Source: Reinekea thalattae (GTDB lineage: Bacteria > Pseudomonadota > Gammaproteobacteria > Pseudomonadales > Natronospirillaceae). Taken from it: a stretch of 64,000 nucleotides of DNA. The DNA lies in NCBI RefSeq assembly GCF_008041945.1, contig NZ_VKAD01000001.1:868001-932000 (forward strand), read 5' to 3'. A program made the translations under genes and the position numbers. The stretch's first letter is position 1, and each line of letters starts with the position of its first letter. Under the pieces are notes generated by a model. It was given only the letters and a program-made list of their open reading frames with translations, had not been told where the DNA came from and ran no database searches. Below, one piece after another: positions 23,552 through 49,352 of the stretch.

Positions 23552-25576
23552 ATGGATATTAAACTTTCAACCAAAATCATTATCTGCTTTTCACTTATTG
23601 GCCTGCTGTTTATGGGGTCATCTTGGCTCGGCTATAAAAGTCGAGATAACGTTATCGATAGCCTAACTATTATCACCGAGTCATCGACGCCAGTGGTGAA
23701 GCTTTCTTCTGATTTAAGTTTGCATGTTCAGACCGCAGAACTTTTGATACTAAAACTTTCTGACGCAAAAGATCTGAACGAATTTACTCAGAAACTACAG
23801 GACGTAAACGAGAACAATGCTCTGATTCAAGCAATGCTGACTGAATTAGAAGACGCACCTATCGACAAATATGTTCACACTGCTATCCAGCCAGACTTAG
23901 ATCGCTTAAATACAGTTATTGAGCAAATGCTGGAATACTCAGACAAACTGGTTAGCCATGAAAATGAATACTTACGATTAACTCTCGAGGCGGAACGAAT
24001 CTCAGAAGAGCTAACCCTTTTACGCGATAAGGTAACCCCACTGCTAACCAATATTCTGTTAGAAGTTGAGGCAGAAAGTGTTATCTCAGTCGTCAATCAA
24101 ACCAACGCTTCTGTTACCGCAGGTATGCTAATTATTGAGCAGCTAGTAAATACCGATGACATCGCACATTTACAACAGTATCGAGATAGTTTCATCCACT
24201 GGCAAAATGCTCACTCTAGCTTACTTCCATCACTTATATTTTCTTCTAACGATGACAATTTCGAACAATTTGTATCTGAGCTATCACTGCTCACGTTATC
24301 GATCTTAGATGCTGTTGAGGGTAATAATGGCCTGCTAGAAATACAAAGAAAAAGATTAGAGCTTGCCGAGCTTTCACAAAACGATTCCAACATGCTCGGA
24401 GAAAGAATCATTTCAGCAGAAGAAGCAACTCATAGCTTACTTGATACTGCCTTTATCATTAACGATGATCTTGCTAACAACATCCGTAAAGATGCCATTC
24501 AACAAAATACGATTAATATCTTCTTAGCGATATTAATTTTAATTGCCGTAGCCGCTATATCCATTTGGATCAGTTCGTATCTCAAGCGATCAATTAAAGT
24601 GCTGATGGAGCAATTAAATTCGTTATCAAAAGGCCATTTAAAACGAATCAAACCAACACGCCGAAAGGATGAATTTGGTCAATTAAATAACTATATGGTG
24701 AACGTCATTGATGGACTTAGACAAACCGTCAGCAGCATTGACCAGTCATCACACATTGTAGAAAGCTCGGTTCAAAGTGTTGCCACTAGTGCGCAAAGCA
24801 CCTTGGATATTGTCACCAAACAAAAGACAGAAATAGACCTAGTCTCAACAGCGCTCGTTGAAATGAGTTCAACAGCCAATGAGGTGGCAAAACATACAGA
24901 GCAAACTCACGCCCAGGTACTTTCTGCTGCCGAACTATCGAAAGAAAGTCGCGGCCACGTACAATCAAGTTTTAACAGCATTGAGCAAATATCACTTCAA
25001 ACTGGTCAAGCCATTGGTGTTATTCAAGAGTTGGACAGCGCTGTTACAAGCATTGAAGGCGTTATCGATACTATTACAGAAATTGCAGACCAAACAAATT
25101 TACTAGCATTGAATGCAGCTATTGAAGCCGCTAGAGCAGGCGAGCAAGGCCGAGGCTTTGCTGTCGTTGCGGATGAAGTTAGGACACTGGCAACCCGAAC
25201 ACAGGAGTCGACACAAGAAATTCAAGATAAGATTCAGTCTATGGTGACTAATTCTAGAATGGCTGTCGATGTTATTAAGCAAAGTGAACTTAAGGTCGCA
25301 GAAAGCTTAGAACAAGCCAGAATTTCTGATCAAAGTATTGTTCAATTTGAAGGTCAAATGAACGAAATACGTGAGCTTTCTTATTTAATTGCCACAGCAG
25401 CTGAAGAGCAAGCACAAACCGCATTAGAGCTGGAGAATAGTTTAACTAAAATCGCTGACCTGACTGATGAAACCCGGACCACTGCCGAATCTGCAAAAAA
25501 TGCTGCTGTATCGCAAGTCGATGTCGCGCATTCGCTGCAGGAAAATGTTTCCAAATTCCTTCTGGATGAGGCCTAA
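23552..25576 (+). CDS. Methyl-accepting chemotaxis protein with large helical sensor domain
   Basis: This 674-residue transducer has one membrane helix at about 8-27, a periplasmic region of about 290 residues that is nearly all helical, a second helix at about 322-345, a HAMP linker, and a signalling domain with the conserved tip [38 protein letters not shown]. The size and helical character fit a helical bimodular (HBM) sensor domain, but I cannot prove it. No CheR/CheB pentapeptide is at the C-terminus. Start ATG 23552 is taken over TTG 23543. A solute-binding protein gene follows after 6 bp. Confidence 0.92.
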
Positions 25577-25582
25577 TTCATT

Positions 25583-26980
25583 ATGCTAATTTCTAATAAG
25601 CTAACTCTTACGTTACCAGCTTTTACAACGACAGCTGTTAAACTTATACCCCGCTACTTTGTTTGTATTTTATCAAAAACTAAAAAGCTTTCGGCTGCAT
25701 TATTTTTTATCGCCCTGAGTGCTGCTTCTTACAGTTCTGCGGTAGAGCTTAATATCGCCACCGTTAACAACGGCCATATGATAGAAATGCAGAAGTTAAC
25801 CTCAGAATTTGAAAAAGCATATCCGGATATCACGTTAAAGTGGAATATCTATAACGAAGGCAGCTTACGCATGCGTGCTATTGCCGACATTGCCTCCGGT
25901 GGTGGCCGTTATGATGTATTAACCATTGGTATGTATGAAGCACCCATTTGGGCAGAGCGAGACTGGCTACAGCCGTTAGATTTCGATTCTTCTTATGATA
26001 TGAACGATCTACTACCGTCTGTACGCGATGGCTTATCCTATAACGGCAAGCTCTATGCGGCGCCCTTCTATGGCGAAAGCTCTATGCTGATGTATCGAAA
26101 AGACCTTATGGACAAAGCTGGTATTACCTTAGATGAACGGCCAACTTGGCGATCCATTTACTACGCGGCACAAAGTATTCATGACCCAGAAAATAACCTT
26201 TACGGCATTTGCTTACGTGGCAAACCCGGCTGGGGTGATAACATGGCGTTGATCACAACGATGGTCAATAGCTTTGGTGGTCAGTGGTTCAACATGTCTT
26301 GGACCCCTCAGCTAGAAAGTACGCCATGGCAAGAAGCGGTTTCATTTTATATTGATCTACTCACTAGCTACGGCCCGCCTAACTCAGAAAAAAATAGTTT
26401 TAACGAGATATTGCAGCTGGCTCGCAATGGTCAATGTGGCATGTGGATCGATGCTTCTATTGCCGCATCCTTTTTAACTGACGGCAATCAAAGTGACTAC
26501 GCTGACAACTGGGCGTTTGCCCAAGCGCCTTATAAAACCACAAGCTCTGGTGCTAACTGGTTATGGGCTTGGTCTTTGGCGATTTCCAAAAAATCTCAAA
26601 ATGTTGAAGCAGCGAAAACCTTTATTAGCTGGGCAACGTCAAAAGACTACATCAAACTTGTTGCCAGCAAAAACGGTTGGGCAAACATTCCGACAGGTAC
26701 TCGAACCTCTACTTACCAACAAGAAGAATTTTTGTCTGTTGCAGGTGATTTCGCAAAAGCCGAGCTAGAAGCGATGAGAACAGCCGACCCAGAAAATAGC
26801 ACCCTACTGCCCTCGCCTTACACCGGAGTTCAGTTTGTTTCTATTCCTGAGTTTGTTGCTATTGCCGGCGCAACTGGGCAACAAATTTCTGAAGCATTAG
26901 AGGGTAAGATAACAGTACAACAAGCACTTTCTAGATCGCAGACCATTGCACTACGAGAAATGCGACGCTCTGGTAATTAA
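25583..26980 (+). CDS. Extracellular solute-binding protein, family 1 (sugar type)
   Basis: A periplasmic binding protein of 465 residues resembling sugar or polyol ABC binding proteins: VELNIATVNNGHMIEMQKLTSEFEKAYPDITLKW, YDVLTIGMYEAPIWAERDWLQPLD, YAAPFYGESSMLMYRKDLMDKAGI and a C-terminal half with several tryptophans. The signal peptide hydrophobic core is at about 36-50 with cleavage near YSSA-VEL, leaving an unusually long 35-residue leader; no alternative ATG, GTG or TTG in that stretch gives a normal one. It is co-directional with the chemoreceptor 6 bp upstream, and no permease or ATPase genes are nearby, so it may feed a receptor rather than a transporter. Confidence 0.88.
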   Translation: MLISNKLTLTLPAFTTTAVKLIPRYFVCILSKTKKLSAALFFIALSAASYSSAVELNIATVNNGHMIEMQKLTSEFEKAYPDITLKWNIYNEGSLRMRAIADIASGGGRYDVLTIGMYEAPIWAERDWLQPLDFDSSYDMNDLLPSVRDGLSYNGKLYAAPFYGESSMLMYRKDLMDKAGITLDERPTWRSIYYAAQSIHDPENNLYGICLRGKPGWGDNMALITTMVNSFGGQWFNMSWTPQLESTPWQEAVSFYIDLLTSYGPPNSEKNSFNEILQLARNGQCGMWIDASIAASFLTDGNQSDYADNWAFAQAPYKTTSSGANWLWAWSLAISKKSQNVEAAKTFISWATSKDYIKLVASKNGWANIPTGTRTSTYQQEEFLSVAGDFAKAELEAMRTADPENSTLLPSPYTGVQFVSIPEFVAIAGATGQQISEALEGKITVQQALSRSQTIALREMRRSGN

Positions 26981-27025: not shown

Positions 27026-27056
27026 CAAAAAGGCGTCTATCTAAGACGCCTTTTTT
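27026..27056 (+). terminator. Bidirectional terminator between the binding-protein gene and prmC
   Basis: AGGCGTCT (27031-27038) pairs with AGACGCCT (27044-27051) around a 5-base loop. Runs of A before and T after allow termination in both directions for these convergent operons. Confidence 0.9.
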
Positions 27057-47151: not shown

Positions 47152-47477
47152 TACACATACCTACTCAGATTAAGCCAAAGACTCACCAACATAATTTTAA
47201 TATTGGCAAGCTAACATGACCTTTTTAATTAAAATATTGTCTTTTTACAACAAATGGCCTCTTTTCTGAAATTTAACATAAAGTATTCAGTTGCCCTGCC
47301 GTTACTTATTTTGATTTTTTAAGGTTTTAACCTAGCATTTTTAGGTATACCTAAAGCTTCATCAAAAAGACGTTAAAGACTAACGCTTGCTATTGGTCAA
47401 TTATGAGTTCTATCTCACATACGCTCATTGAGAAAGACTTTAGGCTATACATAAAGGATCCAAAGGACCTAAGAATT
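47152..47477 (+). other. Divergent region between mtgA and the second chemoreceptor
   Basis: About 325 bp, very AT-rich, with no supported gene. It holds two palindromes at 47322-47355 described separately. The chemoreceptor frame itself runs back to ATG 47403 but the segment 47403-47477 looks like leader. Confidence 0.5.
47322..47355 (+). promoter_or_regulatory. Twin palindromes upstream of the second chemoreceptor
   Basis: AGGTTTTAACCT (47322-47333) and TTTAGGTATACCTAAA (47340-47355, a perfect 16-bp palindrome) share AGGT/ACCT-like ends, and their centres are 20 bp apart, two helical turns. This looks like a pair of sites for one dimeric regulator. Confidence 0.5.
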
Positions 47478-49352
47478 ATGAAACAATTTAAACTTCAAGT
47501 ATTTTCAGCCCTAGGCTGTATCGTAGCGGTAATCATTTTGATTATTGCTCTACTCGACTTCTTGTCGTTCCGATCTGAAAGCCGTGATCTCAACAAGCAG
47601 ATTCTGATTGAACGAAACCTTGCTCTAGAAGCAGAAATGACTGAAAAGTTTAACAGCTATGTCGACGTTTTTGCATCGATGGAGATGGGCGGTCACGATG
47701 TTAATGAAGAACATCTAAATGAGCAAAATGTTGCGACGATGTCATCGGTTTATGAAATTTTAAAAAATCGAAGCAATGGTGTTTACCTGTTTGACACCTC
47801 CGGTTCAGCCTATCGCCGCTCTGGTGAAAAGATGTCGGCCAACTATAAAGGTCGCAGTTACTACAACGCGATTTTTGAAGACGGCAAACAATTTTACGTT
47901 GGCTCACCGTACACAAACAAGAGTAACAACAAAGTCTCTTTTGCTATGGCGTATAAGTTAAAAGCTGATACCGCTCTAATGATAACGGTGCATCTAGATA
48001 TCTTCATCAATCATCTTGCAGAAAGAAAAAATCTCTTTATGTATACCGACAATGGCACCATTGTAGTGGCGCCGAATGAAGAGCTAATTGGTCAAAAGAT
48101 TTTCGAAGCTATTCCTGAATTCGAAGAATTTAGCGAAGAGTCACCAGAAATGACTTACGTTGATCGCTCTGGTGGTAAGAAGGTTGAGTACACTGCTTTT
48201 TGGGGTCAAATGGACATCAACGGCTGGGGCTATGTCAGCTTGGCTGAAAACGATGTTATTTTCAAAAGCGCCAACCAGCAGCTAATTACGTCTCTATCAA
48301 TTGGCCTTATCTCATTCATCATTGCCATTGTCATCCTACACTTTGTACTAGAAAAACTGGTATTACGACCAATCGGTGGTGCACCGCAACACATCGCCTC
48401 ACTGATGGAAAAAATGGCCTCTGGCGATTTAAAATTGAACCTTCGTGCCACAGCAAAAGATACTGGTATTTATCGTTCACTGATCGAGTTGTCATCTCAG
48501 CTGCATGAACTGATTGGTAAGTCGACAGCGGTTTCAGACAGTGTTTCATCTTCGTCACAAGAACTTAACGTCGTGATGAGCGAAACGCTAACCAACATGG
48601 AACACGAAAAACTGCAGGTCGAGCAAATTTCAACAGCAATTTACGAGCTTTCCAGTACCTCACAAGAAGTTAGTGATAAAGCGGTCAATGCTGAAGAAGA
48701 AACCAAGCTTAGCCAAACAACCATTGCAGACGGTAAAGAGACGCTTGAGAAAAACATGGCGTTGGCAAAAGACATCAACCACTCTGTTACAGAAACAGCA
48801 ACCATTGTTGATGAGCTACGCAAATTCTCAATCGAGATCGGCACTGTAACTGAAGTTATTAACGGTATTTCAGAGCAAACCAACCTACTGGCACTGAACG
48901 CCGCTATTGAAGCAGCACGAGCCGGTGAAGCAGGTCGAGGCTTTGCGGTTGTTGCTGACGAAGTACGTGCTTTAGCATCGAAAACCCAGCAATCGACTGT
49001 CAGCATTCAAGACATCATTCAGAAGCTGCAAGAGAAGTCTGAAACGGCAAGCAGCAACATGACTCAAAATGTTGAACTGATCGAAAGCTCGGTAGAACTG
49101 ACCGAACAGGTGAGAGAAGCGTTCGAAGAAGTCTCGCTAGCGATTAACAAAATTTCTGAAATTAATGCCATGGTTGCCACCGCATCGGTTGAGCAAACCG
49201 GTGTTACCGAAGAAATTTCGCAAAATACCACCAAAGCATCCGACTTGGTTCAGCAGAACGTATCTGCAATCAATCAGGCGCTACAGGCATCTACCGAACT
49301 GGCAAAACATGCTCAGGCTCAAAAAGACGCCCTAGACTACTTCAAAGTCTAA
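47478..49352 (+). CDS. Methyl-accepting chemotaxis protein with Cache-type sensor domain
   Basis: From ATG 47478 (AAAGGA about 10 bases upstream) the protein has 624 residues: membrane helix at about 9-29, a periplasmic region of about 240 residues with the Cache features [55 protein letters not shown] and IDINGWGYV-type end ([13 protein letters not shown]), a second helix at about 270-290, HAMP, and the signalling tip [38 protein letters not shown]. Cache domains bind small molecules such as amino acids or organic acids. No pentapeptide tether at the C-terminus. Single gene with its own terminator. Confidence 0.93.

Follow-up and report, generated by a model that had tools for sequence, protein, structure and literature searches.

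In a 64,000-nucleotide stretch of the genome of the probably marine bacterium Reinekea thalattae (contig NZ_VKAD01000001.1, positions 868,001 to 932,000 of the forward strand), in the following called the window, a gene for a chemoreceptor (methyl-accepting chemotaxis protein, MCP) is followed by a gene for a periplasmic solute-binding protein (SBP). It is likely that this pair represents a dedicated sensory unit, in which the transporter-less SBP presents a polyol to a chemoreceptor with the fold of TorS. Such a unit had already been proposed from the letters of the DNA alone (the sequence-only reading), and it is now supported by the occurrence of the pair at nine loci with no ABC permease detected beside it, by the predicted fold of the receptor domain, and by a changed segment of the SBP. 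In the proposed mechanism, the SBP, which is related to the SBPs of polyol import by ATP-binding cassette (ABC) transporters, would bind a polyol in the periplasm and close on it. The loaded SBP would then attach not to a permease but to the periplasmic domain, of TorS fold, of the receptor that the upstream gene encodes, thereby shifting the second transmembrane helix, and the HAMP domain and the signalling hairpin would relay this shift to CheA. The outcome would be taxis toward the polyol at concentrations that fill the SBP. We infer the contact, the ligand, the direction of the signal and the behaviour; the SBP appears to have been released from nutrient import and now to serve a sensor.

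The receptor and binding-protein genes at nine loci

The receptor gene starts with ATG at position 23552 and its stop codon ends at 25576 (plus strand, 674 aa). After a gap of 6 bp, the open reading frame (ORF) of the SBP follows on the same strand and in the same frame (25583-26980, 465 aa); both ORFs are intact. A Shine-Dalgarno-like GGATGAGG for the SBP gene is located within the end of the receptor gene (25564-25571, plus strand), and similar arrangements were found within the receptor gene ends of two further loci, L061 and L254. Downstream of the SBP gene lies an intrinsic terminator (27027-27055) with a 12-bp stem flanked by A and T runs. Its folding energy of −16.4 kcal/mol (z −6.6) was equalled by none of 200 shuffles; a simple consensus scan for terminators did not pick it up. 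The terminator is probably common to the SBP gene and to prmC on the minus strand. Coordinates, ORFs and stem thus confirmed the order of chemoreceptor, 6-bp gap, SBP and terminator that had been described before, and the sequence suggests that the two genes are co-transcribed.

The same receptor-SBP pair was found at nine loci: in the window, in an uncultured Marinomonas (L061, SBP 80% identical), an uncultured member of the Enterobacterales (L062), Psychromonas (L063), Alteromonas (L064), Vibrio galatheae (L065), Vibrio (L067), and two genomes of the same order as the window (L142 and L254). The genes are co-directional in the window, L061, L254 and L142, and divergent in L062-L065 and L067. 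The L254 pair, which has a 3-bp gap, was found later through the receptor domain. At L142 the SBP gene lies 54 bp after an MCP gene that is truncated by the contig end, so that the sensor domain there could not be compared. The receptor periplasmic domains of L061-L065 and L067 are homologous to that of the window with 30-67% identity. The two genes stay together while the orientation changes and the genes next to the pair vary among the loci looked at (by Pfam, one neighbour each at four loci). This gives the conserved genetic link that had been named as a check; it supports an SBP-activated chemoreceptor, although it is no strictly defining mark of one. Over eight pairs, the identities of SBPs and receptor domains correlate with r 0.84, a value reached in 1 of 20,000 permutations and to which common species history adds. 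The window-type pair was not seen in six other genomes of the genus that were sampled.

In agreement with the earlier observation that the pair comes without permease or ATPase, the surroundings of all nine loci yielded no ABC permease, and neither permease nor ATPase of the polyol kind was detected in 8-14 kb at L061-L065 and L067. Two conditions had been named as refuting the sensory unit: an unconserved pair, or an SBP that always comes with its own ABC permease and has no predicted contact with the receptor. The recurrence of the pair speaks against the first, and the missing permeases against the permease part of the second. A TRAP-type transporter cluster, assigned by reading, is located just past the receptor of the L067 pair (L067:582-3654).

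The solute-binding protein without its permease

The SBP matches SBP_bac_1 (PF01547) at 167 bits, and its best relative in the PDB is 4rya, named 'Sorbitol' (ABC sorbitol-binding protein; E 2e-149). Along the mature protein it is therefore homologous to SBPs of the sorbitol/mannitol (SmoE/MtlE) type; the second mark of this type, genes for cognate permeases and an ATPase alongside, is absent. Its earlier description as a sugar-type periplasmic SBP holds as to the periplasmic SBP, which by homology is better read as polyol-type (sorbitol, mannitol or arabitol). A polyol of the mannitol, sorbitol or arabitol type is somewhat more likely than not as the ligand class.

For a comparison with related proteins, one genome per species was scanned, and the best 80 of 549 confirmed relatives were kept. 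A polyol-type permease gene is located near 71 of these 80, six have an MCP and no permease, and three have neither (two of them close to a contig end). Identity to the window SBP is about 48-67% among the operon SBPs, and on long enough stretches their operons usually add an ATPase and a polyol dehydrogenase; that of L071 is closest to D-arabinitol dehydrogenase, under the cut-off of that model. The SBP is encoded in 13 of 369 genomes sampled evenly from the class. Among the ten of these outside the order, nine carry a permease beside the SBP gene and one (L230) is at a contig edge; no MCP was found in the stretches fetched around these ten. Both counts of permease neighbours identify the permease as the usual partner of this type of SBP. 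A plasmid search gave 892 records with a relative of the SBP, all below 60% identity.

Two unusual forms of the family were seen besides. One is a lone polyol-type SBP (L145:7030-8343) with neither permease nor receptor detected within 15 kb. The other consists of six secreted-looking double-domain proteins of 678-699 aa, in which an N-terminal domain is joined to a polyol-type SBP_bac_1 domain (L148:13638-15707, L157:5995-8046, L158:6001-8040, L159:6982-9069, L160:9443-11479 and L161:6547-8646). Among three N-terminal domains scanned, that of L148 matched SBP_bac_3 below the cut-off, and those of L157 and L158 gave no match. No permease directly adjoins these genes; an MCP gene directly adjoins one of the six, at 47 bp, and lies 4.6 kb away from another. 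The double-domain proteins are possibly two-ligand sensory SBPs.

For the SBP tree, 56 of 110 rows were used, with the operon rows thinned to 26 of 80 and L254 left out; some rows are long-branched, and some labels are 'unknown' due to short contigs (L076, L132, L149). The seven window-type SBPs form one branch (support 100/99), which is joined by L142 (98/94), and all eight are MCP-adjacent. A second MCP-paired, permease-less branch, consisting of L146 and L147 with the MCP gene 42 and 34 bp upstream, is found elsewhere in the tree and adjoins SBPs having both permeases and an MCP nearby. In total, the label 'pair' requires five changes on the tree.

The receptor-paired SBPs differ from the operon SBPs in one segment, residues 86-112 (25838-25918, plus strand). 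At 13 positions a residue conserved to at least 90% in 79 operon SBPs is found in none of the seven window-type SBPs, and nine of the 13 lie within residues 88-110. A stricter set comprises 171 positions conserved over 84 SBPs (the 79 operon SBPs and five with permease and MCP nearby). Ten of them are changed in all seven window-type SBPs, eight of these inside a stretch of 25 residues, a clustering that none of 20,000 random draws equalled. L146 and L147 are both changed at 13 of the 171 positions, six of which are among the ten window-type positions (hypergeometric p 1e-5; this value and that given for L142 below assume independent positions, which these are not). The segment is closer to the operon consensus than the rest of the protein in 79/79 operon SBPs and less operon-like than the rest in 7/7 window-type SBPs and in both L146 and L147. 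The SBP of L254, which is outside the set that defined the positions, has identities to the operon consensus of 0.44 in the segment vs 0.61 in the rest. It lacks the operon residue at 10/10 positions and carries at nine of them a residue seen in paired SBPs, the tenth being position 267 with D, where other paired SBPs carry N or E.

Loss of contact with a permease could give such a change as well, and neither permease nor ATPase is encoded beside the SBP, so that it might be a remnant of a lost polyol operon that lies beside the receptor gene by chance. We regard such decay as very improbable, because both reading frames are intact, conservation extends to several of the new residues (8/8 paired SBPs have A101 and Y110, which L142 lacks), and the window SBP retains 152 of the 171 operon-conserved positions. 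Of these 171, 117 are kept in common by all seven window-type SBPs, and the two numbers suggest a largely intact ligand site. A correspondence of segment 86-112 with the Tar-docking loop of maltose-binding protein is suggested in position by a phmmer match to 3puz_E (query 102-188, chain 49-134) but was not used as evidence. The same applies to the mutants T53, D55 and T345 of maltose-binding protein, presumably affecting sites of Tar docking, for which the literature search gave no confirmation.

A transporter for the SBP might be encoded elsewhere, as had been proposed for checking. In the source genome, which is 98% complete at 2.94 Mb in 5 contigs, there are 52 BPD_transp_1 matches, 14 SBP_bac_1 matches, 24 MCP signalling domains and one CheA-type dimerisation domain (H-kinase_dim, above cut-off); as to a possible use of mannitol, it encodes a fructuronate reductase and a mannitol-1-phosphate dehydrogenase. 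The 64-kb window contains none of these 52 permease-domain matches. With the polyol permease PermF of L071 as query (the second L071 permease was not searched for), eight matches and no close polyol permease were obtained in the source genome: the best-scoring one is 25% identical and adjoins another SBP gene, and the weaker ones are 22-31% identical. All 23 other MCPs of the genome are more than 15 kb from any SBP_bac_1 gene.

These data bear on a two-job SBP which, as PstS or MalE, would also feed an ABC permease encoded elsewhere. The 52 permease-domain matches would leave room for it; in the passages of PMC4926252 used here, the enterobacterial SBPs and PstS that serve chemoreceptors all go with transporter genes, and within the same bacterial family MCPs occur near whole polyol ABC operons (L148, L150-L152, L155). 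Such a double role is nevertheless unlikely in view of the low identity of the best permease match and its own SBP neighbour, and because the operon-conserved segment is changed here, yet is kept, closer to the operon consensus than the rest of the protein, in 5/5 SBPs with a permease and an MCP nearby.

The receptor domain and its family

Besides MCPsignal (127 bits; PF00015, residues 483-638, 24998-25465), the receptor matches HAMP (25.6 bits, just above the cut-off of 25; PF00672, residues 339-390, 24566-24721) and 4HB_MCP_1 (29.8 bits, cut-off 27), all on the plus strand, and thus has the domains of a chemoreceptor. Hydrophobic spans begin near residues 9 and 323 and leave about 290 periplasmic residues between them. 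The periplasmic ligand-binding domain (about residues 30-322, 23639-24517) was modelled with AlphaFold2 from seven sequences (pLDDT 87.9, pTM 0.75). The model is all helical, with long helices at model residues 77-142 and 232-295, and has the two stacked helical modules of the HBM/TorS class. With a limit of E 1e-3, a Foldseek search of the PDB gave eight matches, of which six are sensor domains of TorS and two belong to PilJ; the TorS structure 3o1h came first (E 2.9e-7). The top match in VIA was TorS of Vibrio parahaemolyticus (3i9y; Z 21.0, 1.9 Å, 229/229 residues), followed by further TorS entries (Z 17.5-19.8), PilJ (16.9 and 14.6), McpZ (16.3) and McpS (16.1). The helical-bundle background in VIA is high, with unrelated rows up to Z 15, and TorS scores above it; TTYH channels and designed bundles (Z 12-15) were treated as such background and rejected as relatives. 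The receptor domain is thus predicted to have a TorS-like fold, which bears out the analogy to TorS drawn in the sequence-only reading.

In this fold class, direct binding of ligands is known, and McpS, solved with malate and succinate, is among the structure matches. The receptor might therefore bind its ligand itself in the manner of McpS, with the SBP as a neighbour in another role such as scavenging, buffering or regulation. We give this explanation little credit, since TorS outscores McpS (Z 21.0 vs 16.1), the two genes remain adjacent where their orientation changes, and the divergence of the SBP keeps pace with that of the receptor domain.

For a view of the wider family, the seven window-type receptors were aligned with eight receptors that same-order genomes encode close to polyol SBPs. 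The eight added domains are 11-19% identical to the window domain, which by itself found three of them (23-42 bits). All 15 domains share five invariant residues, S187, G191, W217, H221 and G260 (numbered as in the window receptor). W217 and H221 belong to a 14-residue motif (residues 217-230, 24200-24241, plus strand), which is a candidate docking or signalling element. Of 390 genomes of the order, 14 contain matches to a profile of the 15 rows, 20 in all and nine of them seed members; in the class sample of 369, the profile found only the source genome. Since in most genomes at most six profile candidates were scored, some family members were possibly missed.

Five of the 11 non-seed matches have an SBP gene in the fetched stretch, namely L254 and, at 5-6 kb and with weaker family scores (52-78 bits), L260, L262, L263 and L264. 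This compares with none of the 23 other MCPs of the source genome within 15 kb (Fisher p 0.0017, a rough background comparison across different genomes). As to the remaining matches, L256 (tested) and L259 (by resemblance) adjoin a GH94 phosphorylase locus, L257 and L258 are truncated by contig ends, and L261 lies beside a secreted protein without Pfam match. L255:7131-9200 is a second family receptor of the source genome (contig 3), located beside a BaeS-like kinase and with no SBP_bac_1 gene near it. It is possible, and is put forward here tentatively, that the domain family serves carbohydrate SBPs in general as an adaptor for docking, and that polyol SBPs were converted at least two times from importer parts to pure receptor ligands by rewriting the surface segment 86-112 that operon SBPs conserve.

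The loci of the weak family receptors L260, L262, L263 and L264 contain an ABC sugar importer. That of L264 also encodes a GH36 alpha-galactosidase and a glycerol kinase, which suggests use of galactosylglycerol (floridoside); for the remaining three loci, a resemblance to L264 was seen in the gene starts only. At L256 and L259, the GH94 phosphorylase is accompanied by a LacI-type regulator (by reading) and a gene of the GlcNAc 2-epimerase family (Pfam in L256 only); no SBP was seen at either locus.

Several results weigh against the interpretation of the pair as a sensory unit. When both proteins were folded as one read-through chain (the two ORFs share a frame across a single TAA; 1142 aa, 18 rows), the model reached pLDDT 69.5 and pTM 0.39, and with this pTM gave no usable SBP-receptor interface. 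The ligand of the window SBP is assigned by homology only. The HBM/4HB check that had been suggested for the receptor was positive, if weakly, for 4HB_MCP_1, and the HBM model was not among the matches at E up to 1. A search of the PDB with the family profile gave coiled-coil-like matches, with no TorS among the 60 of 74 rows viewed. The link to TorS hence rests on the predicted fold. The pair is patchy in its distribution, and a single-sequence scan with the window receptor domain found only its own genome among the 369 of the class sample. L142 belongs to the SBP branch of the window type and lies 54 bp from an MCP, yet it has an operon-like segment 86-112 (+0.10) and is changed at 18 of the 171 positions, of which only four are among the ten window-type positions (p 0.012). 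Finally, the change of the segment is better evidence for the loss of an earlier constraint than for the gain of a partner: in the six permease-less double-domain SBPs the segment is lower as well (6/6, one by 0.01). The signature therefore reports the loss of the permease constraint first, and docking is only inferred from it. The segment is also lower or equal in the four distant L148_12217-type SBPs, of which two have an MCP within 1 kb; the lone SBP of L145, which has an operon-like segment (+0.33), is a further result that does not fit the signature.

Around the pair, a MaoC-like gene is located upstream, and prmC and prfA are located downstream on the other strand. A second chemoreceptor of the window (47403-49352) matches MCPsignal only (Pfam, E up to 1e-6).

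Comparison with known systems

TorT-TorS, the system for sensing of trimethylamine N-oxide, resembles the proposed unit in that its two-module helical sensor domain is driven by a periplasmic binding protein, and TorS is the best structural match of the receptor domain. The systems differ in that TorS is a histidine kinase and the window protein a chemoreceptor, and the family profile gave no sequence match to TorS; TorT also falls in another class of SBPs. The complex of TorT bound to the sensor TorS has been solved, according to a passage of PMC6321045, which also terms the sensor domain of CtpL an HBM domain. This chemoreceptor of Pseudomonas aeruginosa is described in PMC4926252 as worked by loaded PstS in a 1:1 complex with a KD of 3.7 μM. 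It thus exemplifies the SBP-worked chemoreceptor proposed for the window pair. In contrast, PstS is part of the Pst transporter (same part of PMC4926252), whereas the window SBP gene adjoins the receptor gene and no cognate transporter was found.

The systems BasB-BasT and CosB-CosT of Halobacterium are, unlike the window pair, archaeal and concern amino acids and compatible solutes. BasB and CosB are said, since work of Kokoeva in 2002, to be encoded beside their transducers and to serve taxis only. Both putative periplasmic binding proteins copurify with their transducers, as stated in a passage of PMC3579733. Polyol ABC importers share the SBP family of the window SBP and are encoded in operons with a polyol dehydrogenase; the window locus differs from the SmoE/MtlE importers by having no permease, ATPase or dehydrogenase and by the changed segment 86-112. 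In Escherichia coli, Tar is the receptor for MalE, and Trg is that for RbsB and MglB. The action of these sugar-loaded SBPs on chemoreceptors is mentioned in passages of PMC6829864, PMC4926252 and PMC6321045. Unlike in the window, the SBPs are there shared with an ABC importer (PMC4926252) and the receptor domain is a four-helix one (PMC6321045). PA2338, which carries the annotation of an SBP for ABC transport of maltose/mannitol, binds mannitol with a KD of 0.83 μM (a passage of PMC6829864). Sensor kinases encoded beside their own SBP genes are noted in part of PMC11113362.

A literature search found no description of a polyol SBP encoded with a chemoreceptor and without a transporter; it covered titles and starts of abstracts, with most subscription papers outside, and is weak in this respect. 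Chemoreceptors of the SBP-worked type are difficult to recognise, as their SBP is in most cases part of a transporter whose genes lie elsewhere. Where a transporter-less pair is conserved, both candidate partners are named at once and a small system for docking studies is at hand, and the segment signature may help to spot other SBPs that sense rather than transport. If the reading as an adaptor family with converted SBPs is true, the switch from transport to sensing would be readable in sequence. Mannitol is a common algal polyol; if it is the ligand, the pair would link the swimming of marine bacteria to algal exudates. Chemoreceptors worked by binding proteins are already well known, and the transporter-less polyol pair is an unusually clear-cut form of this known principle.

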